NCBI GenBank assembly: GCA_903920405.1
Contig: CAIXMC010000044.1
Coordinates: forward strand, 1-12,918
Length of the DNA: 12,918 nt
Reading direction: 5' to 3'
Origin: an uncultured beta proteobacterium
GTDB taxonomy: Bacteria > Pseudomonadota > Gammaproteobacteria > Burkholderiales > Burkholderiaceae_C
Position numbers and translations under genes: made by a program. Shown here piece by piece: positions 1,422 through 12,884 of the stretch; the first letter of the stretch is position 1; each line of letters opens with the position of its first letter. Under the pieces are notes generated by a model. The model had not been told where the DNA came from and did not search any database. It was given only the letters and a program-made list of their open reading frames with translations.

Positions 1422-2177
1422 TCAAACTACTGCCCCGTAGGCATCCATCATAAACCGCCTGTGCAGTAAATAATCTCCATATTCATAATAGTTCAGTGTC
1501 GCTTCAAGATAATCCTGAATCATGCGGACTGGAAACAATACAGGAGGCAAATTATGGGCCATCAGGATGGCATTTTGAAATAGTCTGGATGTTCTTTTGT
1601 TTCCATCTTCAAAATATTGAAGATAGGCCAGATTTGCAGCAGCGTAAAGGGATTGATCAAAAGTGTCATGTATTTTGTTCATTTCTGAAAATAAAATACT
1701 GATTTCCCTGTTGAGTTGTTTTTTGCCTGAAAGGGGCTGGTATTCGCTGCCCCCAATTTTAATGCCAGCAGTTTGACGTGAGCTACCGAGGTTAGAGTCG
1801 GACAGCAACCCTCTCATGATGATGCTGTGGTAAGTCGCGCATTCCTCCAGGGGATGTGTTAATACTTTGTGTGAATGGTGCAAAATATAATCATAGGCTG
1901 CACGCAAATTCATGATCATCACGGCTTCAGAATAACGTTTATCGCCAGCCGTTTTGCCAAGTTTCAGCAGACTGATAGTATCTGCACGGGTGTAGGTATT
2001 TCCCTCAATTTGCGAAGATGTAAAAACAAAATCGATGGCGCTTTCTTCCATCCATCGTGGATGTTTGATAAGTTGAGAAAGTGAAAATGAATTCCCAATG
2101 TTGTGCAAAAATTCAAGTTCTTCACTTGAAAAAATAATATGATTTAATAATCTGGATGATTGGTAACCAAAAGACAT
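1422..2177 (-). CDS. Fic-domain protein with His-to-Gln at the catalytic site
   Basis: Encodes 251 residues. Fic enzymes usually transfer AMP from ATP to a Ser, Thr or Tyr of a target protein. The Fic motif is at 187-195 and reads QYFEDGNKR, against the consensus HPFxxGNGR; the catalytic His is Gln (codon CAA, base-checked). The phosphate-anchoring DGN and the Arg remain. TSSQIEGN at 53-60 matches the (S/T)xxxE(G/N) inhibitory helix of N-terminally inhibited (class II) Fic proteins, and GSSRQTAGIKIGG (131-143) with the following YQPL is the target-clamp (flap) region. Start: the ATG at 2177 follows AAGGAGAGTCA, a strong ribosome binding site. No DNA-binding domain is visible, and no antitoxin gene is adjacent. 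The gene is A/T-rich compared with the ABC-F gene that diverges from it, which suggests acquisition. Activity is uncertain: it may be a pseudo-enzyme, a binding protein, or a Fic with altered chemistry. Confidence 0.9.
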   Translation of the reverse strand: MSFGYQSSRLLNHIIFSSEELEFLHNIGNSFSLSQLIKHPRWMEESAIDFVFTSSQIEGNTYTRADTISLLKLGKTAGDKRYSEAVMIMNLRAAYDYILHHSHKVLTHPLEECATYHSIIMRGLLSDSNLGSSRQTAGIKIGGSEYQPLSGKKQLNREISILFSEMNKIHDTFDQSLYAAANLAYLQYFEDGNKRTSRLFQNAILMAHNLPPVLFPVRMIQDYLEATLNYYEYGDYLLHRRFMMDAYGAVV

Positions 2178-2185
2178 TGACTCTC

Positions 2186-2214
2186 CTTTTTGTTGATGAT
2201 TTTTAATTTATACT
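2186..2214 (+). promoter_or_regulatory. Possible promoter of the ABC-F gene
   Basis: The 78-base gap between fic and the ABC-F start carries TATACT at 2209-2214, with only a weak -35-like T-rich stretch at 2186-2192. A second TATACT lies at 2230-2235, which would give a very short leader before the proposed TTG start at 2256. Either could serve; neither has a good -35. Confidence 0.3.
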
Positions 2215-2255
2215 CTCGGCCTTCATTTTTATACTTAACTTACCTTAACTCCCCC

Positions 2256-4214
2256 TTGATTACCCTTAAAAACGTTACCCTACGCCGAAGCACCAAAGTC
2301 TTGCTCGACTGTGCATCTGTCACATTGAATCCCGGTGAAAAAATCGGTCTGGTCGGGCGCAATGGATCAGGCAAGTCATCCTTGTTTGCACTGTTCAATG
2401 GTAGCTTGCACGAAGATGTTGGCGAATGCACCGTTCCCCGTCAATGGCGTATGGCTCAAGTGGCGCAGGACATGCCCGAAACCCATCAAGCTGCCACTGA
2501 CTTTGTGGTTGATGGTGATACCACTTTGCTTTTGGCTCGGCAAGAAGTGGCAGCGGCTGAGGCCACCGACGATTATGAGCGCATGGCACACGCCTACATG
2601 GTGTTGCATGACGCTGGCGCACACGATGCTCCGGCACGCGCTCAAGCCTTGATATTGGGCTTGGGCTTTCAAACCACAGAGTTGGGCAACCCCGTCAACA
2701 GCTTTTCTGGTGGCTGGCGCATGCGCTTGCAACTCGCACGTGCATTGATGTGTCCGTCAGACCTGTTACTGTTGGATGAACCTACCAACCACCTTGATTT
2801 GGATGCGCTGGTGTGGCTTGAATCGTGGCTCAAAAAATACGAAGGCACGATGATTGTCATTAGCCACGACCGCGAGTTTCTGGATGCCGTGACCTACGTC
2901 ACCCTGCACATTGATGCTGCCAAACTGGTTCGCTACGGTGGCAACTACAGCAAATTTGAAGACATGCGATCCGAGAAACTGGAACTGCAACAGGCCGCAT
3001 TTTCAAAGCAGCAAGACAAAATTGCCCACCTGAAAAAGTTCATCGACCGCTTCAAGGCCAAGGCCAGCAAGGCCAAACAGGCACAAAGCAGGGTCAAGGC
3101 ACTCGATCGCATGGCAAAAATTGCCCCACTGCTGTCTGAGGCCGACTTCACGTTTGAGTTCAAAGAACCTGCCCAATTGCCCAACCCTATGCTGTCGATG
3201 AAAAACGTCAGTTTTGGCTACTTGCCTGTGTCTGACGAGAAAACGCCCACCGTGATTGTGCGCAACGTTAGCCGTTCAGTGCTGGCCGGTCAGCGCATCG
3301 GCATTCTGGGGGCCAACGGTCAGGGCAAATCAACACTGGTCAAAACCATTGCGCGCGATTTACAAGCCATCAGCGGCGAAATCACCGAAGGAAAAGGTCT
3401 GAACATTGGATATTTTGCCCAGCAGGAGCTAGACGTTCTGCGCCCAGCCGATACCCCTCTTGAACACATCACCCGACTGGCCAAAGACATGTTGGCTGTG
3501 GGAAAAATGGCCGGTCAGCCCACCCGTGAACAAGATTTGCGTAATTTTTTAGGCACCTTCAATTTCAGTGGCGACATGGTCAAGCAAGCCGTAGGCAGCA
3601 TGAGTGGCGGTGAAAAAGCGCGATTGGTGTTGTGCATGATGGTCTGGCAGCGCCCCAATTTGCTGTTGATGGACGAACCCACCAACCATCTTGATTTGAC
3701 AACGCGTGAAGCTCTGGCCGTTGCACTCAATGAATTTGAGGGCACGTTGATGCTGGTCAGCCACGACAGGGCTTTGCTTCGGGCGGTGTGCGACGAATTC
3801 TGGCTGGTGTCTCACGGGGGTGTAGAACCTTTTGATGGCGACCTGGACGACTACCAACGCTACCTTCTGGATGAAGCCAAACGCCAGCGTGAAGCACTCA
3901 AAGAGATCAGCAACGCATCTTTGAAGGCAGAACGTCAGGCATTGGCAGAAAACGCTGCCGCGCCCACCAAGGTCAAGCCAAAATCTGTGTCAACGCTTCA
4001 ACGTCAACTGCTGGACATTGAAGCACGCATGGCCTCGTTTCAAAACGAAGGGGCGACTCTTGAAAGCCAGTTGTGCCAATCGCCCTCCCCTGCCAATATG
4101 GCTGAACTGGGCAAACGCCTGAACATGGTTCATGAAGCATTGCAAGCGGCAGAAGAACAGTGGCTGGCTGTGTCTGGCGAAATAGAATCCCTATCCACAT
4201 CCACTTGTTCCTAA
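2256..4214 (+). CDS. yheS: ABC-F ATPase, YheS type
   Basis: Encodes 652 residues if translation starts at the TTG at 2256. ABC-F proteins are soluble twin-cassette ATPases that bind the ribosomal E site and act on stalled or specialised translation; YheS itself is still poorly defined. Cassette 1 has Walker A GRNGSGKS (34-41), a signature [12 protein letters not shown] (150-161), Walker [13 protein letters not shown] (170-181) and switch His in SHDRE (203-207). A basic helical P-site tympanum-like linker runs about 245-290 ([18 protein letters not shown]). Cassette 2 has Walker [10 protein letters not shown] (352-360), signature MSGGEKARL (449-457), Walker [13 protein letters not shown] and SHDRA. 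A charged coiled-coil tail follows from about 540. There are no membrane segments. The frame is open further upstream (ATG at 2196), but the TTG gives [11 protein letters not shown], the standard family N-terminus. No Shine-Dalgarno supports either start. The gene lies 10 bases upstream of rfbB and is probably co-transcribed with it. Confidence 0.9.
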
Positions 4215-5319: not shown

Positions 5320-5430
5320 TTTTATCGTTCCCACGCTCCTGCGTGGGAACGTTCTGTACGTTGGGTGAGACAGTGGGCGCACAAGCGCTCAGGGGCTGCG
5401 TTCCCACGCAGGAGCGTAGGAACGATAAAA
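5320..5430. repeat. Double-hairpin inverted-repeat element (30-bp arms)
   Basis: The left arm 5320-5349 and right arm 5401-5430 are inverted copies with one mismatch. Each arm is itself palindromic: CGTTCCCACGC at 5326-5336 pairs with 5341-5351 around TCCT, and the second hairpin spans 5400-5423 with one mismatch. The core CGTTCCCACGC...GCGTGGGAACG is a dispersed palindrome seen in many proteobacteria (recalled). Two REP-like units facing each other suggest a small mobile unit. The element sits about 30 bases after rfbB and could end its transcript; a weak stem with a T-run occurs just beyond it (5451-5457). Confidence 0.8.
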
Positions 5431-5639: not shown

Positions 5640-6020
5640 TCATGGGTAAAAATACATTGCAACAGTCTGTAAAGAATTACGACGCACCGGCCACTGCAAG
5701 CGCTCATAAAACGCGCCCACCTGAATCAAAATCACATCGTCAGGAAACGCTTCACGCCAATACCGGTATTGCGCCTGCACTGTGCGAACAGCACCTGGCT
5801 TAGGAAGCCTGTCGCGCCGAAAGAGTTGTAAAGTTTTTCGGCGCAGTCCAAAATACACCTTGAGCCACGGGTGAGCCGCCCCAATGCTCTGAATCAGCCG
5901 ATGGCAGGCAGCGTAGCGAAAATGCCCCAGGTACGATGAGAAACTCGCCTGCAATGTGTCAAGTGCATCGACATCAAACCCAGGGTGAATTTGTTCTGAA
6001 GGCAAGTTGTTGAATTTTCG
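5640..6020 (-). pseudogene. Reverse transcriptase remnant with MutS-I-like C-terminal domain (DGR type)
   Basis: About 121 codons are open after an in-frame stop at 6021-6023; the best start is a TTG at 6003-6005. The segment LDTLQASFSSYLGHFRYAACHRL (two parts: about 15-25 and 24-37) matches the C-terminal SYLGH-x-R-x-A-x-x-x-RL helix that closes reverse transcriptases of diversity-generating retroelements and their relatives. After a spacer, AQYRYWREAFPDD followed by VILIQVGAFYERL (78-103) resembles the start of MutS domain I, where the G-x-FYE motif lies. MutS-like (MSL) accessory domains are described for DGRs. All fingers/palm motifs, including the YxDD active site, are missing. The 5' side is cut by the palindrome at 5981-6080, and the 3' side abuts the element at 5472-5633. 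No avd gene or template repeat is visible nearby. Could instead be the tail of a related RT class. Confidence 0.55.
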
Positions 6021-6108
6021 TCATTCCCGCGAAGGCGGGAATCTAGTGCATTCTGGATTCCCGCCTTCGCGGGAATGACGGAACTGGCTGTAGAACAAAT
6101 TCACCCTG
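5981..6108. repeat. Nested inverted repeat with outer 17-bp arms
   Basis: CAGGGTGAATTTGTTCT at 5981-5997 is the perfect inverted copy of 6092-6108. These arms enclose the REP-like palindrome at 6019-6080. The left outer arm lies within the reverse transcriptase remnant and the right outer arm within the 3' end of the 313-codon gene, so the same 17 bases are read as parts of two unrelated frames in opposite directions. That points to a fold-back duplication or inversion rather than to two homologous genes. Confidence 0.75.
6019..6080. repeat. REP-like palindrome (CGTCATTCCCGC type)
   Basis: A perfect 25-bp inverted repeat at 6019-6043 and 6056-6080 is separated by 12 bases. Each arm contains ATTCCCGCGAAGGCGGGAAT, a small hairpin in itself. 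This family (dRS3-like, with ATTCCC...GGGAAT ends) is widely dispersed in proteobacteria. Translation through it gives the tell-tale SFPRRRES peptide at the C-terminus of the neighbouring protein, showing that it was inserted into or onto that gene. Confidence 0.9.
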
Positions 6109-6984
6109 ACTAAGGCCCAAAGTACGGGTTTCTCGTTCATTTACTGTACCGGCTTTAATTCCCACCTCTGCCTTGATGGCTGATGCTTGAGCACCACCGC
6201 TCACGCCAACATTTACCGCTTCATTGGTGGCAACCTTGCCTTGGATTTTGGCTCCAACACTGACATCTCCGAGCTTTACAGTCACAACCGTCTCAGCGAA
6301 CTTTTCGCCGTCTTCAGTGATGAAAGTGTCTCGACGCTCGGCCTTGGCCATTGAGTATTTACCGTTGGCCCCAAGGTTAGCCTCGGCCCCCATTGTGAAA
6401 GCATCAGACTTGGACGCATTGCTGCTTGTTGATGTCTTTGCCCACGGATCGCCCTCTGTTTTATAACTAACGCTCTGCTTGGTGCTTTGCTTAAGCGCGT
6501 CATACTCTGTTTTCGCCTCAAAATCTCCGATTCTTGCAGATGCACCTGCATTTGCCTTGGCATTGATCGACACTTTATTAACATCGACTTGCGTACTGGA
6601 AATATGCACATCACCCGAGTCGGTTGATGTGAGGTGAACTGTTCGCACTACCGAATCATGAGCAACATCCGGACGATAGTCGCGTTGAAGCAGTCGCGCA
6701 GCTGTTTTCTCAGCAGGTTCCAATAAATAATCGCGGCCCCTGGTTGGCCCCAATTTGAACTCAATGAAATTCTGGGCCTCTTGCAGTGAGATGTCGCGCC
6801 CCATTTTGTCGCTGAGGGTTGATTGCAGTTCCTCAAGTCTTTGTTGTGCCTGGGCAGTCCTGGACATCAGGTCCACCGGGGTTTGCAACAGGTCTGCATC
6901 TGGTCGATACTTGTTGGCGGCCGCAATGTTGGCAAGCCACAACTGGTTTGCTAGCTCTGTTGAGCTCAATTCTTCTGATGACAT
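6043..6984 (-). CDS. Unrecognised 313-residue protein, 3' end replaced by a repeat
   Basis: I do not recognise a family. Residues 1-75 or so are probably helical (AQAQQRLEELQSTLSDKMGRD). From about 115 to 290 the sequence turns to short alternating stretches rich in Ala, Gly, Val, Ser and Lys, for example VSINAKANAGASARIG and VNVGVSGGAQASAIKAEVG, suggestive of a beta-rich region; stretches like this occur in secreted or toxin-like proteins, but no toxin domain is visible. There is no signal peptide or membrane segment. The last residues, PSFPRRRESRMH, are encoded by the palindrome at 6019-6080, so the native C-terminus is lost or altered from about residue 300. The ATG at 6984 follows GAGGTGTTGTT, a usable ribosome binding site. 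The gene starts 66 bases after the heptad-repeat gene on the same strand and is probably the second gene of that operon. It may now be non-functional. Confidence 0.65.
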   Translation of the reverse strand: MSSEELSSTELANQLWLANIAAANKYRPDADLLQTPVDLMSRTAQAQQRLEELQSTLSDKMGRDISLQEAQNFIEFKLGPTRGRDYLLEPAEKTAARLLQRDYRPDVAHDSVVRTVHLTSTDSGDVHISSTQVDVNKVSINAKANAGASARIGDFEAKTEYDALKQSTKQSVSYKTEGDPWAKTSTSSNASKSDAFTMGAEANLGANGKYSMAKAERRDTFITEDGEKFAETVVTVKLGDVSVGAKIQGKVATNEAVNVGVSGGAQASAIKAEVGIKAGTVNERETRTLGLSQGEFVLQPVPSFPRRRESRMH

Positions 6985-7050
6985 AACAACACCTCAGTTC
7001 AAAGGGTATCTCGTCGCACTTGATTGAATCAGGATCAGTTACCAATAACT

Positions 7051-8529
7051 TTACAGCATCGAATACGCACGCGCCGCAGCCTCAGACGCAGACCGTGCGG
7101 AGTTCTCGGCCATCTCGGCGGCTGAACCGGCGCGCGAATCACTCGATTCAGCATTGCGCGCTGAATTTTGCGCTTCGTCAGCCGCGCGCTGCGCTTCATC
7201 GCGCGCATGCTGCGCATCGTCAAGTGCCTGCTGGGCCGTGCGCAGCGCTTCCTGCGCATCAGTCAATGCGCTTTGCATTTGTTGCAGCAATTCATTGGCA
7301 CTTTGCAAGGCATCATCCACTTGCGCCCGTGTCGTTGCAGCATCCTGTGCCTGCTGGCGTGCTTCTTCAACGTGTTGCTCGGCCTGCTGCACCTGAGCTT
7401 GCGCTTGCGACGCCAATGTATTGAGCGCTTCGGCGTGTGTGGCTGCTGCCTCTGCCGCTGATGCGGCGTGTTGCAATTGCTCGTGTGCCTGATCACGCGC
7501 GCTCATCGTTTCGCGGGCCAATGCCTCGGCATTTTGCGCATGGGCCTCGGCAGTAGTGGCTTGACTGGTTGCTGTGGTCGCTGCTTGTCCGGCCTGATCA
7601 GCATTCGAGTGCGCCGTTTCGGCCGCTTGGGTAGCCTGGGCGGCCTGCTGCAGGGCGTCGCCTGAAGCCTGCTCAGCTACACCGGCTTGCTCTTGTGCAG
7701 TGCCTGCTGACGCTTCGGCGGCAGTGCCTGCAGACTGCGCTTGCGTTGCCGATCCATGAGCGGCCTCTGACTGGGCGTGCGCATCGCTGGCTGCTGTGGT
7801 TGCCTGGGTAGCTTGGTTGGACGCATCGGCGGACGCAGTCTGTGCTTCGCTGGCGTGCGTTGCCGCCTCGCTGGCAGCATGCTCAGTATCCTTCGCGCTT
7901 GCATCTGCATGTTGGGCACTTTCTGCCGCCTGGCGCGACTCGTCATTTGCGGTTTCAGCCGCTCTGGCGGCCTCATCGGCGTGTGATCCAGCCGTATCTG
8001 ATGCTTGATGTGCGGTGTCGGCCTGCTGCTGTGCCTCAGTGGCCGAATGCGTTGCCGCTTGCGCCTCATGGCTGGCCTCTTGGGAAGCGTTCTCAGCCGA
8101 ATCAGAATGTTGCTGAGCCTGTCCGGCAGAATGTCCGGCCTCGCTGGCGTGTTGGCCGGCTTCACCTGCCGAAGTATGTGAGGCTTCGGCCTGGGAGTGT
8201 GCTTCGCTTGCCGACTGCCCTGCGGTCTGTGCGTGTGCTTGGGCCTCGCCAGAAGACTGAGTGGCGGTTTGCGCCTCCGCTTTGGCTTCGCCCGCAGATT
8301 GCTCGGCCACGCCGGAATGCCCATGGGCGCTGCTGGCATGCTCTTCCGAGGTGTGTGCATGGGTTCCCGCTTGGGCTGCGCTGGCACTGGCTGCGGCCTG
8401 TTCTTGCCCTGCACGCTGCGCCTCATCGTGGGCTGATTGCTCAGCCTCGGCGGCGCGCGCGGCGGCCTCCTGGGTCTGTTGCGCCATTTGATTGGCCTGC
8501 TCCAGTGCTTCTGAAACACGATCTGACAT
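7051..8529 (-). CDS. Ala-rich coiled-coil protein of 70 continuous heptads
   Basis: Encodes 492 residues with no recognised family. Read in sevens from Met1, the protein divides into 70 heptads with no skip or insertion, ending in Met-Leu. Typical units are SAGEAGQ, HASEAGH, QADTAHQ and HADEAAR. By hand count, heptad position 5 is Ala in about 61 of 70 units and position 2 is Ala in about 44, with Ser or Leu the common alternatives. Leu at position 2 clusters at about residues 407-441, and His is frequent between about 57 and 340. I see no Pro, Cys, Phe, Trp or Ile. This predicts one uninterrupted, tightly packed Ala-zipper (Alacoil-like) rod, roughly 70 nm long if fully helical. There is no signal peptide or membrane segment. 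The ATG follows GAAGGAGAACAGC, a strong ribosome binding site. The gene is divergent from the dynamin-like/Hsp70 pair. Possible roles are a scaffold, a filament or an LEA-like protectant; none can be proved here. Confidence 0.88.
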   Translation of the reverse strand: MSDRVSEALEQANQMAQQTQEAAARAAEAEQSAHDEAQRAGQEQAAASASAAQAGTHAHTSEEHASSAHGHSGVAEQSAGEAKAEAQTATQSSGEAQAHAQTAGQSASEAHSQAEASHTSAGEAGQHASEAGHSAGQAQQHSDSAENASQEASHEAQAATHSATEAQQQADTAHQASDTAGSHADEAARAAETANDESRQAAESAQHADASAKDTEHAASEAATHASEAQTASADASNQATQATTAASDAHAQSEAAHGSATQAQSAGTAAEASAGTAQEQAGVAEQASGDALQQAAQATQAAETAHSNADQAGQAATTATSQATTAEAHAQNAEALARETMSARDQAHEQLQHAASAAEAAATHAEALNTLASQAQAQVQQAEQHVEEARQQAQDAATTRAQVDDALQSANELLQQMQSALTDAQEALRTAQQALDDAQHARDEAQRAADEAQNSARNAESSDSRAGSAAEMAENSARSASEAAARAYSML

Positions 8530-8629
8530 GCTGTTCTCCTTCAGTTAACAGTCCAAAAAAAGCCCACACACCCGAGCCAACACTTTCATCATTCTGGCAG
8601 AAACCATGCAAGCCAGAAAGCAGGGGAAG

Positions 8630-8657
8630 CTACATTATTCGCAAATCATTGTATACT
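8630..8657 (+). promoter_or_regulatory. Possible promoter of the dynamin-like/Hsp70 operon
   Basis: TATACT at 8652-8657 is a good -10 box; about 16 bases upstream is a weak -35-like CTACAT at 8630-8635. Transcription would start near 8664, giving a leader of about 25 bases to the ATG at 8689. The poor -35 suggests activator dependence or low basal expression. Confidence 0.35.
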
Positions 8658-8679
8658 TTGCCACGAAACCCATCTCCAA
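8650..8679 (-). promoter_or_regulatory. Possible promoter of the heptad-repeat operon
   Basis: On the minus strand TTGGAG (8674-8679) and TATACA (8650-8655) are 18 bases apart. The -10 overlaps the -10 of the opposing promoter because both use the palindrome GTATAC at 8651-8656. The leader to the ATG at 8529 would be about 115 bases. Shared -10 DNA means that the two divergent units could not easily initiate at the same moment. Confidence 0.35.
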
Positions 8680-8688
8680 TTGAAGTGA

Positions 8689-10599
8689 ATGGCTGATTCC
8701 CGTCTCATCCTCAAATTTCGTGACCTGGCGCTCAATTGCCAGCAAATCGGTCAAGATGTTGAGCGTGGTCAGGCCAATACACCGCTCGCAGACCATTGCG
8801 CCCAGATATTGCGGGAACTTCAGTACCAACCTTATGCCATCACACTGGTGTCGCTGGCACCCGATGCTCGCACCGAAGCTCTACTTTGGCTGCTTGGAGA
8901 GGAACATCACGGTGTATCCATGCAAATTAGCCGACTTGGCGGGCTTGCGGAAATTCATCTGGCACAACACAGCTACGCATTTCTGGAGTCAGATGGGCGC
9001 AAGCTCGAATTTGAGTCGCTGCCAGGCTTTATCGCCGCTTTGGAACAAGAGTTGCCAAAGTGGAGCGCCGCTCTCGATGCCGGCTCCGCTATCAAACTGG
9101 CACTGGCTGCGCCCGCAGGGGCACAGGGCCTGACGATTTTGCTGCCCGAGTCTCTGGCGGCCACAGGCAGCGTGGCCGGACTGGCAGGTGAATTGATCTC
9201 GCGTAGCCAGATGTTGTTGGTGGCCAGTACCCAAGACCAGGCACCGCCAGAGGGTGACGATCTCGCATTTTTGCGGCATTTGGCCAGCGGCATTGGCTGC
9301 GTGTTACCCCTTGTGACAAACCCCCAACCCGAAAATGCCACTCCACAGCGCTGGTGGTCTAACCTCAGTCTCAATGGCGCTCGAATCCTTGCGCCTGTGG
9401 TTCCTGGCAAGCCACACTCGCCATGCCTTTTGACCTCGCCAGTACAAGAGCTATTACCCCTCTTGGCGATGACAGGCGCTGTGCAGCGTTTGCAGTTGGC
9501 CAGCGAGGCACTGCGTGAGCGTCTTGAACAAGACATTCGTCAGTTGCAATCGAGGCGTAGTCGGGAAGAAGATGCTGCACGACCCGAAACAACGGTCGAT
9601 GTCAGCGCGCGCCGTCCTTTCGACCTGGCCCGCGCACAAGCCCTGGACGAGCTTGCCGCATTGGCCAAGGCCAGTGTTGAATCTTCCAGACGTAGCCTTT
9701 TGCCCGAGGGGCCTTTAACGCTGGCTTTGGGTGAGGAGTTGCGTGGTTTGCAACATGCCGACCTGGAACGTGAACAGGCCAGTAAAACTTTCAAACTCAG
9801 CCTATCGTCGTCCTATCAAGGACACCTGGCCAAAACGCTGCGCAGTACCCTCAAGGAAGAACTGTCGCGTGATTTGGTGACCATTCGCGATGGTCTGGAC
9901 GTGATTCGCACTCGGCTGGAAGCCACACTGGAAGAAACCTGCGGCATGCCAGTCAGTTTTACCCTGACGCCGCCTTCCAAGTCTGAGCTGTGGGCGCGCA
10001 TTGGTGAGCTGGTAGCCATCGAGATTCGCTACCGGGGCGAGATGCCACGGCGTGGTTTCATGCAGCGCTTGGGCGAGGGGCGCCGTGCAGTATTTGCCGG
10101 AATGATGGTGCTTTCACTGGTGGGTAGCTTTGTCGGCTTTTCCTGGCGCGGCATTGGCATCATGGGTGCACTCTTCCTGCTGGTCTTTATCGGCGTGGTT
10201 TTTTTTACCTACAAGTCTTGGCAACGCGAAGACGAGGAGAAGCTCGACAACGAACTGGTGCGCATCCGTGAGCAATTGCAGTCGGAGTGCCGTCGTGTCG
10301 CCAGCGACGTCCAGCGTGAAAAGCAAACCCGTCTGGCCGAATTTCTGGACCAGATCAAGCGCTTGGTTCAGCAGCGCATCGACGACCTTTCGCGAGAACG
10401 CCAACAGCGCGACCAGGCCAGCCAAAACGAGCAGCGCGAGCGCTCTCGCATCCGGCTCAAGAAACTCGATCAGCAACTGCGTGAACTGCAAGCGATCACG
10501 CCCCGTGCCACCAAACTGCGTCAGGATCTGGCCAGCCTGAACCATGAGGCCGAGCTGGCAGTGCGTGATTTCATACAACAACGAAAGCTTGGCACATGA
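8689..10599 (+). CDS. Dynamin-like membrane protein with degenerate GTPase domain
   Basis: Encodes 636 residues. The layout follows bacterial dynamin-like proteins. A hydrophobic strand enters the G1 position at 51-72 (ITLVSLAPDARTEALLWLLGEE), where a GTPase would have GxxxxGKS before the ALLG helix; here the Gly and Lys are gone. GLTILLPESLAATG (147-160) occupies the G3 position, where DxPG is expected but absent. MLLVASTQDQ and VLPLVTNPQPE (175-184, 205-215) match the following strands, with no N/TKxD. Helical segments at about 265-420 are followed by two hydrophobic stretches at about 467-484 and 488-507, a membrane hairpin or paired membrane segments. A highly charged coiled coil covers about 511-625. 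GTP binding is therefore unlikely. The protein overlaps the Hsp70 gene by four bases (ATGA), indicating translational coupling. The ATG has only a weak GAAG upstream. The dynamin-like call is by eye and may be refuted by structure prediction. Confidence 0.75.
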   Translation: MADSRLILKFRDLALNCQQIGQDVERGQANTPLADHCAQILRELQYQPYAITLVSLAPDARTEALLWLLGEEHHGVSMQISRLGGLAEIHLAQHSYAFLESDGRKLEFESLPGFIAALEQELPKWSAALDAGSAIKLALAAPAGAQGLTILLPESLAATGSVAGLAGELISRSQMLLVASTQDQAPPEGDDLAFLRHLASGIGCVLPLVTNPQPENATPQRWWSNLSLNGARILAPVVPGKPHSPCLLTSPVQELLPLLAMTGAVQRLQLASEALRERLEQDIRQLQSRRSREEDAARPETTVDVSARRPFDLARAQALDELAALAKASVESSRRSLLPEGPLTLALGEELRGLQHADLEREQASKTFKLSLSSSYQGHLAKTLRSTLKEELSRDLVTIRDGLDVIRTRLEATLEETCGMPVSFTLTPPSKSELWARIGELVAIEIRYRGEMPRRGFMQRLGEGRRAVFAGMMVLSLVGSFVGFSWRGIGIMGALFLLVFIGVVFFTYKSWQREDEEKLDNELVRIREQLQSECRRVASDVQREKQTRLAEFLDQIKRLVQQRIDDLSRERQQRDQASQNEQRERSRIRLKKLDQQLRELQAITPRATKLRQDLASLNHEAELAVRDFIQQRKLGT

Positions 10600-12119
10600 A
10601 CATCGGCATTGATCTGGGCACCACGTTTTCTCTGGCGAGCTATCTGAACGCTCAAGGCGTACCCGTGCTGGTGCCAGATTTTCACCAGGCCACCCTGTAT
10701 CGCACGCCCAGCGTGGCCAGCATCCGCGGCGGCCAGGCGCATGTTGGCCATGCGCTGGAAGAAAAGCTCCTCGATGAACCCGGTCTGCCCATTTGCCGAG
10801 GCTTCAAGCAATTGATGGGCAGTCTGACGGTGGCGTACAGGGACGACGAAGGCCGCCATTGGAGTGCGCCGGCGCTATCGGCGCTGGTGCTCAAAAAGCT
10901 GTTGAACGACGTGGAAGGCCATTGTGCCGAAAGTGTCGAACATGCCCTCATCACCGTACCCGCCAACTTCAACGACGCCCAGCGCAAGGCCACGCAGATG
11001 GCGGCGCGGCTGGCGGGTCTGTCCTCTGTTTCGCTGATTGAAGAGCCTGTGGCCGCTGCGGCCTTCTATGGTTTTAGCGAACGCGATGCCGAGCAAACCC
11101 TGCTGGTGTACGACTTTGGTGGTGGCACCTTTGACGCCACGGTGTTGCAAATTTCGCAGGGGCGGCTGTATGTGTTGGCTACCGATGGAGACAATCAGCT
11201 CGGGGGTCGCCATCTGGATCAGGCTCTGGTGCAATTGGTGGCGGCTGATTTTCAGCGCAGGCATGGCATCGACCCCCTGCAAGACGCGGCTGCGGCAGAG
11301 ACCCTTCGCCGCTTTGCTGAAGCCGCCAAAATTGGCCTGTGCCAACCCGGCCACGGCCAGATGCGCAAAACCCTGGTGCTGACGGGCAAGGTCAGCGAGG
11401 TCACCTTGAGCGCCGATCAGCTTGAGCGGCTGGTCGCGCCATTGGTGGCGGCCACGCTGCAAAGCTGTGCGCGCTGCCTGGAGGGGGCAGGCCTGGGCTG
11501 GAGCCAGATCGACCGCATTTTGCTGGTGGGTGGCTCCAGCCTGCTGCCCCAGATCGGGCGGGCACTGTTGCAAACCAGTGGCAAGGCACCGGCAGCGCTC
11601 ATCTGTAAGCAACCGCATCAGGCAGTGGCCTACGGCGCAGCCATTCTGGCTGAAGCCCTGGCGCACCAGGCCATTTCTGGAGAGGCTGCGCTGCACCACG
11701 CCGTTGCCCCCTACCACCTGGGTCTGCGCGTGCGCGAAGCCAACGGCCAGGGCGTGCGTGTGGAGGTGTTGATCAAGCGCAACACGCCACTGCCAGCGCG
11801 CCATACCGCGACGTTTTACACCAGCCGCTCAGACCAGACGCGCCTGATTTTTGACATTGTGCAAAGCAAGGGCGACAACGCCATTGACGCCAGCCTGGGC
11901 ATGTTTGCCTTTGGCCCGCTGCGCAGCCCCTGCAAGAATTATCCAGTGGAACTCAGCGTAGCCTACGACGCGCAAGGCCTGGTGCGCGTCACGGCCAAGG
12001 ACATGATGACCGGCGAAACCTTGCAACAGGAGCTTGCCAACAGCGAAAACCCGGATATGGCCGGGTTGACGACGGCTCGCACCTTATTGGATAGCGTCAG
12101 GTTGGAAACAAGGGGCTGA
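10596..12119 (+). CDS. Short Hsp70-family ATPase lacking the C-terminal lid
   Basis: Encodes 507 residues. The nucleotide-binding domain is complete: phosphate 1 motif GIDLGTTFS (4-12), the hydrolytic Lys in GFKQLMG (Lys71), EEPVAAAAFYG (149-159, Glu150 matching DnaK Glu171), phosphate 2 motif VYDFGGGTFDATV (171-183), Thr196 in ATDGDN and adenosine motif LLVGGSSLLPQIG (309-321). The linker region (about 364-378, EAALHHAVAPYHLGL) has no DLLLLD-type acidic/hydrophobic motif, although PYHLGLRV matches the PxSLGIET strand that opens the substrate-binding beta domain. That domain ends near 475 (VRVTAKDMMTGE), and the roughly 100-residue helical lid of DnaK is missing; only about 30 residues follow. 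It is thus an Hsp70-like protein, closer in size to HscC types than to DnaK, and no dnaJ or grpE lies nearby. It starts inside the stop of the dynamin-like gene, so the two are almost certainly made together. The membrane protein is a plausible dedicated partner. Confidence 0.9.
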   Translation: MNIGIDLGTTFSLASYLNAQGVPVLVPDFHQATLYRTPSVASIRGGQAHVGHALEEKLLDEPGLPICRGFKQLMGSLTVAYRDDEGRHWSAPALSALVLKKLLNDVEGHCAESVEHALITVPANFNDAQRKATQMAARLAGLSSVSLIEEPVAAAAFYGFSERDAEQTLLVYDFGGGTFDATVLQISQGRLYVLATDGDNQLGGRHLDQALVQLVAADFQRRHGIDPLQDAAAAETLRRFAEAAKIGLCQPGHGQMRKTLVLTGKVSEVTLSADQLERLVAPLVAATLQSCARCLEGAGLGWSQIDRILLVGGSSLLPQIGRALLQTSGKAPAALICKQPHQAVAYGAAILAEALAHQAISGEAALHHAVAPYHLGLRVREANGQGVRVEVLIKRNTPLPARHTATFYTSRSDQTRLIFDIVQSKGDNAIDASLGMFAFGPLRSPCKNYPVELSVAYDAQGLVRVTAKDMMTGETLQQELANSENPDMAGLTTARTLLDSVRLETRG

Positions 12120-12254: not shown

Positions 12255-12884
12255 TCACCAAATAGCCAAATACCCCAGCACCATGCTCAGGGACGCCGCA
12301 CACACAAAGCCCGACCGTCGGGAGTCGCGGTCCCCGACATGGTCAGCGCCCCGACCACCACTGTAGAGAGTAACATCAAAGGCCTCGGAGGAACTAGCGC
12401 GCTCATTGCTCCAGAACCCCCACTCAGTTAATCTAAACTTTGGCGAGGTTCTACAGGTGGACGTGCCACAAGGTATTGACAGCGAAACGTCATAAATGCC
12501 CTGTAGTTCTGAACTTGCAGGCAGCCGCCAGTTCCCTCCTTTGTTGTCGCAATAACGGGTGGCATCTTCCCAATCGATGTCCGAACCGTTGTCAGACTGG
12601 CTCCACTCCAGGCCCGTGGTACTGTCCCTGATCGTGCCTCCATCGGTCAGCACAAATCGTTCTGTCGGTCTGGCAACTGGCTCCTGGGCCTGACGTGTTT
12701 CAACCGGCCGGTCAGATTTTTTCCTGGCCTGGCGCTGTGCAGCTTCCTTTTTTGTCTTGGCTGCTATTTTTTCGTTGAAGCGCCGCTCCAGTTCCTCTAT
12801 CGTCTGCTGCTGCGACCATGCCAGACTGCCCAGCAGCACACTTGACAGCACAACGCTCCAACCCCATAAGCGTGCCAGTTTCAT
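12255..12884 (-). CDS. Secreted DUF1566 (Lcl C-type-lectin-like) protein
   Basis: Encodes 209 residues. A signal peptide occupies 1-24 (MKLAR, hydrophobic core, AWS then Gln-rich mature start), so the protein is exported. A charged helix rich in Gln, Glu and Lys follows (27-57). The Lcl/DUF1566 domain spans about 77-198: FVLTDGGTIRDSTTGLEWSQS (two parts, 77-97), WEDATRYC (105-112), GNWRLPASSEL (117-127), WGFWSNERASSSEAFDVTLYSGG (155-177) and a closing GFVCA (192-196). DUF1566 domains adopt a C-type-lectin-like fold used for ligand binding, and some are DGR targets. The last 13 residues (SLSMVLGYLAIW) are hydrophobic and unlike the usual C-terminal VRCVR ending. The ATG at 12884 has AGAGGAG seven bases upstream. 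Its function is unknown; surface adhesion or recognition is the family expectation. Confidence 0.88.
   Translation of the reverse strand: MKLARLWGWSVVLSSVLLGSLAWSQQQTIEELERRFNEKIAAKTKKEAAQRQARKKSDRPVETRQAQEPVARPTERFVLTDGGTIRDSTTGLEWSQSDNGSDIDWEDATRYCDNKGGNWRLPASSELQGIYDVSLSIPCGTSTCRTSPKFRLTEWGFWSNERASSSEAFDVTLYSGGRGADHVGDRDSRRSGFVCAASLSMVLGYLAIW

Follow-up and report, generated by a model that had tools for sequence, protein, structure and literature searches.

The window analysed here, a 12,918-nucleotide stretch of DNA from an uncultured beta proteobacterium, carries genes for a heptad-repeat rod, a membrane pseudo-dynamin and an Hsp70, and comparison with other genomes supports these three as a unit conserved across phyla. 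We put at a little under even the chance that the window holds one form of a membrane module that is rare and conserved, with assembly triggered by a receptor and gated by a dedicated Hsp70. Sensor-like proteins in relatives, some with tips apparently mutated on purpose, suggest a recognition or defence device. The J-like, kinase and FGE genes of the relatives, and their link to diversity-generating retroelements (DGRs), go beyond the first-pass annotation of the window.

The rod (492 aa; 7051..8529, reverse strand) is an Ala-rich heptad coiled coil with no proline and no predicted transmembrane (TM) segment. A divergent intergenic region of 159 bases (8530..8688) separates its gene from that of the pseudo-dynamin (636 aa; 8689..10599, forward strand), which is followed by the gene for a lidless Hsp70 with intact ATPase motifs (507 aa; 10596..12119, forward strand), overlapping the pseudo-dynamin stop as ATGA. 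The divergent gap, the gene overlap, the heptad rod, the lidless Hsp70 with its ATPase motifs and the lack of GTP-binding residues in the dynamin-like membrane protein had been described in the first-pass annotation and are confirmed. Of the four-protein module proposed there, the rod, pseudo-dynamin and Hsp70 are conserved; the fourth member, a beta-rich protein of 313 residues (6043..6984, reverse strand), is an orphan without conservation in the module, and we reject it as a part. REP-like inverted repeats lie at window positions 6015-6115 and 5325-5430, and the last codons of the orphan fall inside one of them. A 313-base remnant at 5668..5980 (reverse strand) is a piece of the C-terminus of a DGR reverse transcriptase (RT), and a Fic-domain protein (251 aa; PF02661, E 1.1e-7) is encoded at 1422-2177 on the reverse strand.

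Convergent to the Hsp70 gene is one for a 209-residue Lcl_C protein of C-type-lectin fold (12255..12884, reverse strand; PF07603 at 9e-12), and the contig ends 34 bases past it. Its N-terminus has the look of a signal peptide by eye, and a hydropathy scan flagged 0 segments. Position and layout resemble those of the FGE proteins in the Accumulibacter locus described below, and this is tentatively a possible sensor partner of the module.

A family-profile scan of genome contigs identified six loci: Accumulibacter L009, Phaeospirillum L010, Phenylobacterium L011, Verrucomicrobiales L012 and L013, and Psychromonas L014. Genome searches added G025 (L023) and G1147 (L049; 288 genomes searched). With the window this makes nine module loci, in Pseudomonadota and Verrucomicrobiota, and the module genes recur across these phyla in several orders and strands. 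The family is thinly spread. Among 399 genomes of the order, the window's own genome and one other gave clear matches; none of 23 same-genus relatives carries the family; a phylum sample of 398 genomes gave no clear match, four weak ones being dropped; and 249 genomes of the family of L009 gave none beyond L009's own genome, one weak match being dropped. Weak partial matches excluded throughout were those in G413, G429, G433, G483, G763, G852 and G1045 and the second in G788 (E 2.9e-5 to 7.1e-4). Twelve pattern matches on viral contigs included 0 relatives, and plasmids gave no tblastn match.

To call genes in the loci, we searched 2630 stop-to-stop frames from 11 stretches, plus L083 and L084, the additional Phaeospirillum and Psychromonas stretches, with profiles A2, A3 and A6 (the J-like profile). 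The stretches L013, L023, L011, L083 and L014/L084 end at contig ends. Since overlaps were pruned from the ORF lists, these may omit a gene lying beneath a longer antisense frame.

The modelled 636-residue protein has a dynamin-superfamily fold. Its predicted parts are a degenerate G domain (residues ~48-260), a helical stalk, a hydrophobic TM pair (467-506) that by hydropathy only would form a membrane insertion or binding tip, and a long C-terminal helix. The predicted fold and membrane hairpin are those of the Mitofusin / Fzo1 / BDLP dynamins, which differ in that the P-loop is absent from the present family: GxxxxGK[ST] occurs in 0/31 aligned members and 0/22 rows of a second alignment. 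The absence of GTP-binding residues, noted earlier for the window protein, holds, the P-loop being lost throughout the aligned family. The first alignment (A1) comprised the window protein and 30 others, obtained by excluding the self match P0001 and the fragments P0025, P0030 and P0031 from 34 proteins found among the best 8000 candidates scored; the second (A2) comprised 15 of the A1 proteins, the window and six loci, 22 rows in all. The helical region (residues 361-598) also resembles LeoBC, a dynamin-linked defence candidate in PADLOC, by a weak and partial match (E 2.9e-5). Neither this protein nor the rod has a Pfam or NCBIfam family above cut-off. The G025 copy of the pseudo-dynamin has lost its G domain; the rod is retained at that locus, as is a kinase-TM-FGE protein.

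In the window Hsp70 the phosphate and adenosine motifs of the nucleotide-binding domain are present, and the C-terminal helical lid has no match, the Hsp70 profile reaching position 501 of 599. The six aligned module Hsp70s all stop within roughly a dozen columns of the end of the common alignment. The gene adjoins that of the pseudo-dynamin or sits one gene off in 6/9 loci, immediately after it in the window, L009, L010 and L011 and with one gene between in L012 and L013. Profile search found no Hsp70 in the available stretches of L049, L023 and Psychromonas L014/L084. A screen of 274 genomes of the class at E<=1e-150, an uncalibrated threshold, detected the module Hsp70 in a single genome, that of the window itself. 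Beside the G025 module, a 475-residue protein (14365-15792, reverse strand) adjoins an FHA protein (12711-14255, forward strand); considered as a degenerate Hsp70, it was not counted (hhalign probability 2.2%, E 0.022, no A3 profile match).

Heptad rods were found in eight of the nine loci (the window, L009, L010, L011, L012, L013, L023 and L049). Whether the Hsp70 and membrane protein commonly occur without a coiled-coil neighbour had been posed as a check on the module, and the one locus without a rod is Psychromonas, whose available sequence (L014 and L084) is cut by contig ends. Rods with both ends inside the contig measure 467, 492, 701 and 829 aa, the last with a non-repeat N-terminal part; the L009 rod (5873-8362, reverse strand) begins with ~330 non-repeat residues, unlike the window rod. 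The L010 rod lies on L083; ~11 kb, including the J-kinase gene, separate it from the pseudo-dynamin. The Ala power of this rod is 6.2, against a comparison maximum of 1.53. For the 137-residue rod fragment of L013, Ala power (1.22) is below the shuffle maximum (1.29) and apolar power (2.15) above it (1.62). The heptad filter, its cut-offs chosen after rods had been seen, was applied to pruned ORFs no shorter than 130 aa. It passed 10/180 ORFs, one of them a chemotaxis receptor and the other nine module rods (L051 repeats L012). The ORFs of 20 stretches, which overlap in part, gave 8/169, every one a module rod, and those of L083/L084 gave 2/11, the L010 rod and the receptor.

J-like proteins are encoded in 7/9 loci: L009, L010, L011, L012 (two), L013 (two), L014 and L049. 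Profile search of stop-to-stop frames found no such gene in the window or L023, and none elsewhere in the window's genome is convincing, the best match there (E 0.017) overlapping a J domain. The alignment of seven N-termini has the helical profile of a J domain. An hhalign comparison with nine true J domains, taken from 24 loci, gave a probability of 84.6% and E 6.8e-6 (for one comparison) over 55 in-register columns; the five regions used as controls, compared with both sides, reached at most 2.4% probability. The HPD motif is in none of the seven aligned rows, and Pfam DnaJ matched none of nine J-like proteins scanned, one of which begins inside the domain. A membrane segment is predicted in five of six J-like proteins scanned.

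By Pfam, the J-like domain is fused to a kinase in L009, L014 and L010 (via L083), and to PEGA and FGE domains in L012 and L013; the L049 protein has no Pfam family. The middle part of the L011 protein aligns with the L009 kinase, yet has no Pfam kinase match, and may be a pseudokinase. L023 encodes its kinase-TM-FGE protein without a J-like part. Pfam thus places a kinase in 4/9 loci and a lectin-fold domain in 6/9 (the window, as Lcl_C, L009, L010, L012, L013 and L023).

A DGR whose template (TR) and variable (VR) regions pair at FGE tips, identifying these as DGR targets, was found in two of the eight loci scanned (the window, L009 to L014 and L023). In L009 the RT (321-1595) and template (388-517) are accompanied by three variable regions, with 18/20, 19/21 and 21/23 mismatches falling on template A. 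One of these regions is the end of an FGE gene (2078-3349). Another closes a second FGE gene (15607-16647), which is the next recognised gene past the J-kinase gene and shares its strand; the remaining one closes an FGE-like tip, in a frame with an upstream stop. A calcineurin-like phosphoesterase (3334-4194, reverse strand) sits between one DGR target and the rod of this Accumulibacter locus. In L013, where an RT and a bAvd gene accompany the template (2852-2994), both J-like PEGA-FGE proteins terminate in variable regions, with 17/17 and 20/20 mismatches on template A. The window, L010, L011, L012, L014, L023, L083 and L084 yielded no TR/VR pair. The FGE tips of L012 match no template in their own locus or next to three RT genes elsewhere in that genome. 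Of the seven relatives' genomes searched, four contain an RT gene of some kind and three have none.

Elsewhere in the window's genome, contig C350 (L015) carries a complete-looking DGR, with VR 163-302, an Avd-like ORF at ~483-848, TR 1065-1204, RT 1216-2823 and 20/20 mismatches on template A. By eye, the tip of its target is Lcl-like and the end PEP-CTERM-like. The 313-base RT piece of the window is 97% identical to this RT. The tip of the window Lcl_C protein has no match to this TR, and we reject the protein as a target of that DGR.

The literature offers partial likenesses. In cyanobacteria, dynamin-like membrane protein genes of a 'chaperone clade' have a DnaK gene downstream, presented there as a gene adjacency (PMC5827413, in the sections consulted). 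Nearly all of those dynamins have an extended P-loop according to these sections, against 0/31 in the present family, and the present module adds rods, J-like and FGE proteins. A dynamin-like neighbour of BDLP1 has a DnaJ-like C-terminus (PMC6104087, in part). The GAP1-N2 conflict systems, as given in the portion of PMC7159879 consulted, likewise join a membrane-linked GTPase-fold protein, an Hsp70 and a J-domain partner. They consist of GTPases with GAP1 and FNIII proteins, Hsp70, GrpE and DnaJ-fused proteins; FGS lectin domains or kinases occur in some of them, and a subset has an Hsp70 lacking the peptide-binding domain. The present module differs from that account in a G domain without P-loop, a J-like domain without HPD and a recurrent heptad rod; the GTPase with P-loop that defines GAP1-N2 is absent from it (0/31 and 0/22 rows). 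DGR-diversified antigen sensors of multicellular bacteria have C-type-lectin-fold tips linked to kinases or NTPases, and Accumulibacter is among the bearers of multiple DGRs; the main text does not mention Hsp70, dynamin or chaperone (PMC10907252). DGR-diversified lectin sensors also appear in the part of PMC8195603 consulted. PMC8144416 does not mention Hsp70, dynamin, kinase or chaperone, and PMC7517822 does not mention Hsp70, dynamin, coiled or DnaJ, with 'chaperone' once in its reference list. Searches joining diversity-generating retroelement, Hsp70 and dynamin, or pseudoGTPase, dynamin-like and bacteria, found nothing, most subscription papers lying outside them. The module is best read as a combination not found in the literature searched, akin to DGR-diversified conflict systems and to cyanobacterial dynamin-DnaK pairs. 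Its earlier description as a candidate undescribed module stands, within that literature, for the combination; the pairing of dynamin and DnaK genes was already published, as the consulted sections of PMC5827413 attest.

An Hsp70 is switched by ATP and its J partner, and a dynamin by GTP. In the receptor-triggered module that we favour, the lectin-fold part would sense a ligand outside the cytoplasm and the J-like part would recruit its partner Hsp70, whose ATP cycle would replace GTP as the timer by which the pseudo-dynamin is assembled or released at the membrane. The rod could be a scaffold or substrate propagating assembly, and the output a membrane change, possibly harmful to the cell and so perhaps defensive. 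As had been proposed, the Hsp70 may supply the lost nucleotide cycle, or it may act on the rod. In the window version the role of sensor would fall to Lcl_C; the J-like link would be missing or past the contig end, with the locus reduced or cut.

This explanation draws on the recurrence of the parts (rod 8/9, J-like 7/9, Hsp70 and lectin-fold 6/9 each, kinase 4/9), the J-like profile match, the A-specific DGR mismatches, the predicted membrane segments of the J-like proteins, the rarity of the module Hsp70 in its class, and the retention in G025 of rod and kinase-TM-FGE protein after G-domain loss. Counted against it are the window, with no J-like gene or TR/VR pair and an Lcl_C tip unmatched to a template; the three loci whose available stretches gave no Hsp70; the DGR pair in only 2/8 loci and the three genomes without RT; the distance of ~11 kb in L010; and the L012 tips without template. 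An HPD-less J-like domain may also fail to stimulate an ATPase. In a fuller version, doubtful at present, the module would be an immune or recognition device: HPD-less J-like receptors bearing deliberately hypermutated lectin tips would call the dedicated Hsp70, which would take over from GTP as the switch of the dead dynamin and drive a rod-scaffolded membrane assembly.

Less probable still is a housekeeping device for membrane remodelling or envelope stress, in which the pseudo-dynamin scaffolds the membrane, the Hsp70 only folds or disassembles it, the rod is a spacer, and sensors and DGR are later add-ons. It would suit the absence of a J-like gene from the window and of a DGR pair from 6/8 loci scanned, and the cyanobacterial pairs of a dynamin-like gene with a downstream DnaK gene, for which the same role is proposed (PMC5827413, in part); a family this rare and patchy (one clear match beyond its own genome in 399, 0/23 in the genus), with J-like proteins in 7/9 loci and lectin folds in 6/9, argues against it. 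The rod lengths (467 to 829 aa, as listed above) and the presence of rods in 8/9 loci would fit an appendage or storage structure, the rod being a packed or exported filament and the Hsp70 and pseudo-dynamin its membrane assembly factors. We consider this improbable: the window rod has neither a predicted TM segment nor, by hydropathy, a hydrophobic N-terminus, and the J-kinase and FGE proteins are left unexplained. That unrelated genes merely came together in the window, a region with repeats, an RT fragment and the 313-residue orphan, is hardly credible, chance adjacency being refuted by recurrence across phyla in various orders and strands for rod, pseudo-dynamin and Hsp70, and holding for the orphan.

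If the receptor-triggered reading is right, a chaperone-gated class would be added to the DGR-diversified sensor systems, and the family would provide a natural example of a dynamin that has handed over its nucleotide switch to a different protein. The dynamin-DnaK gene pairing would then gain testable partners in the J-like protein, the kinase, the lectin-fold sensor and the rod.
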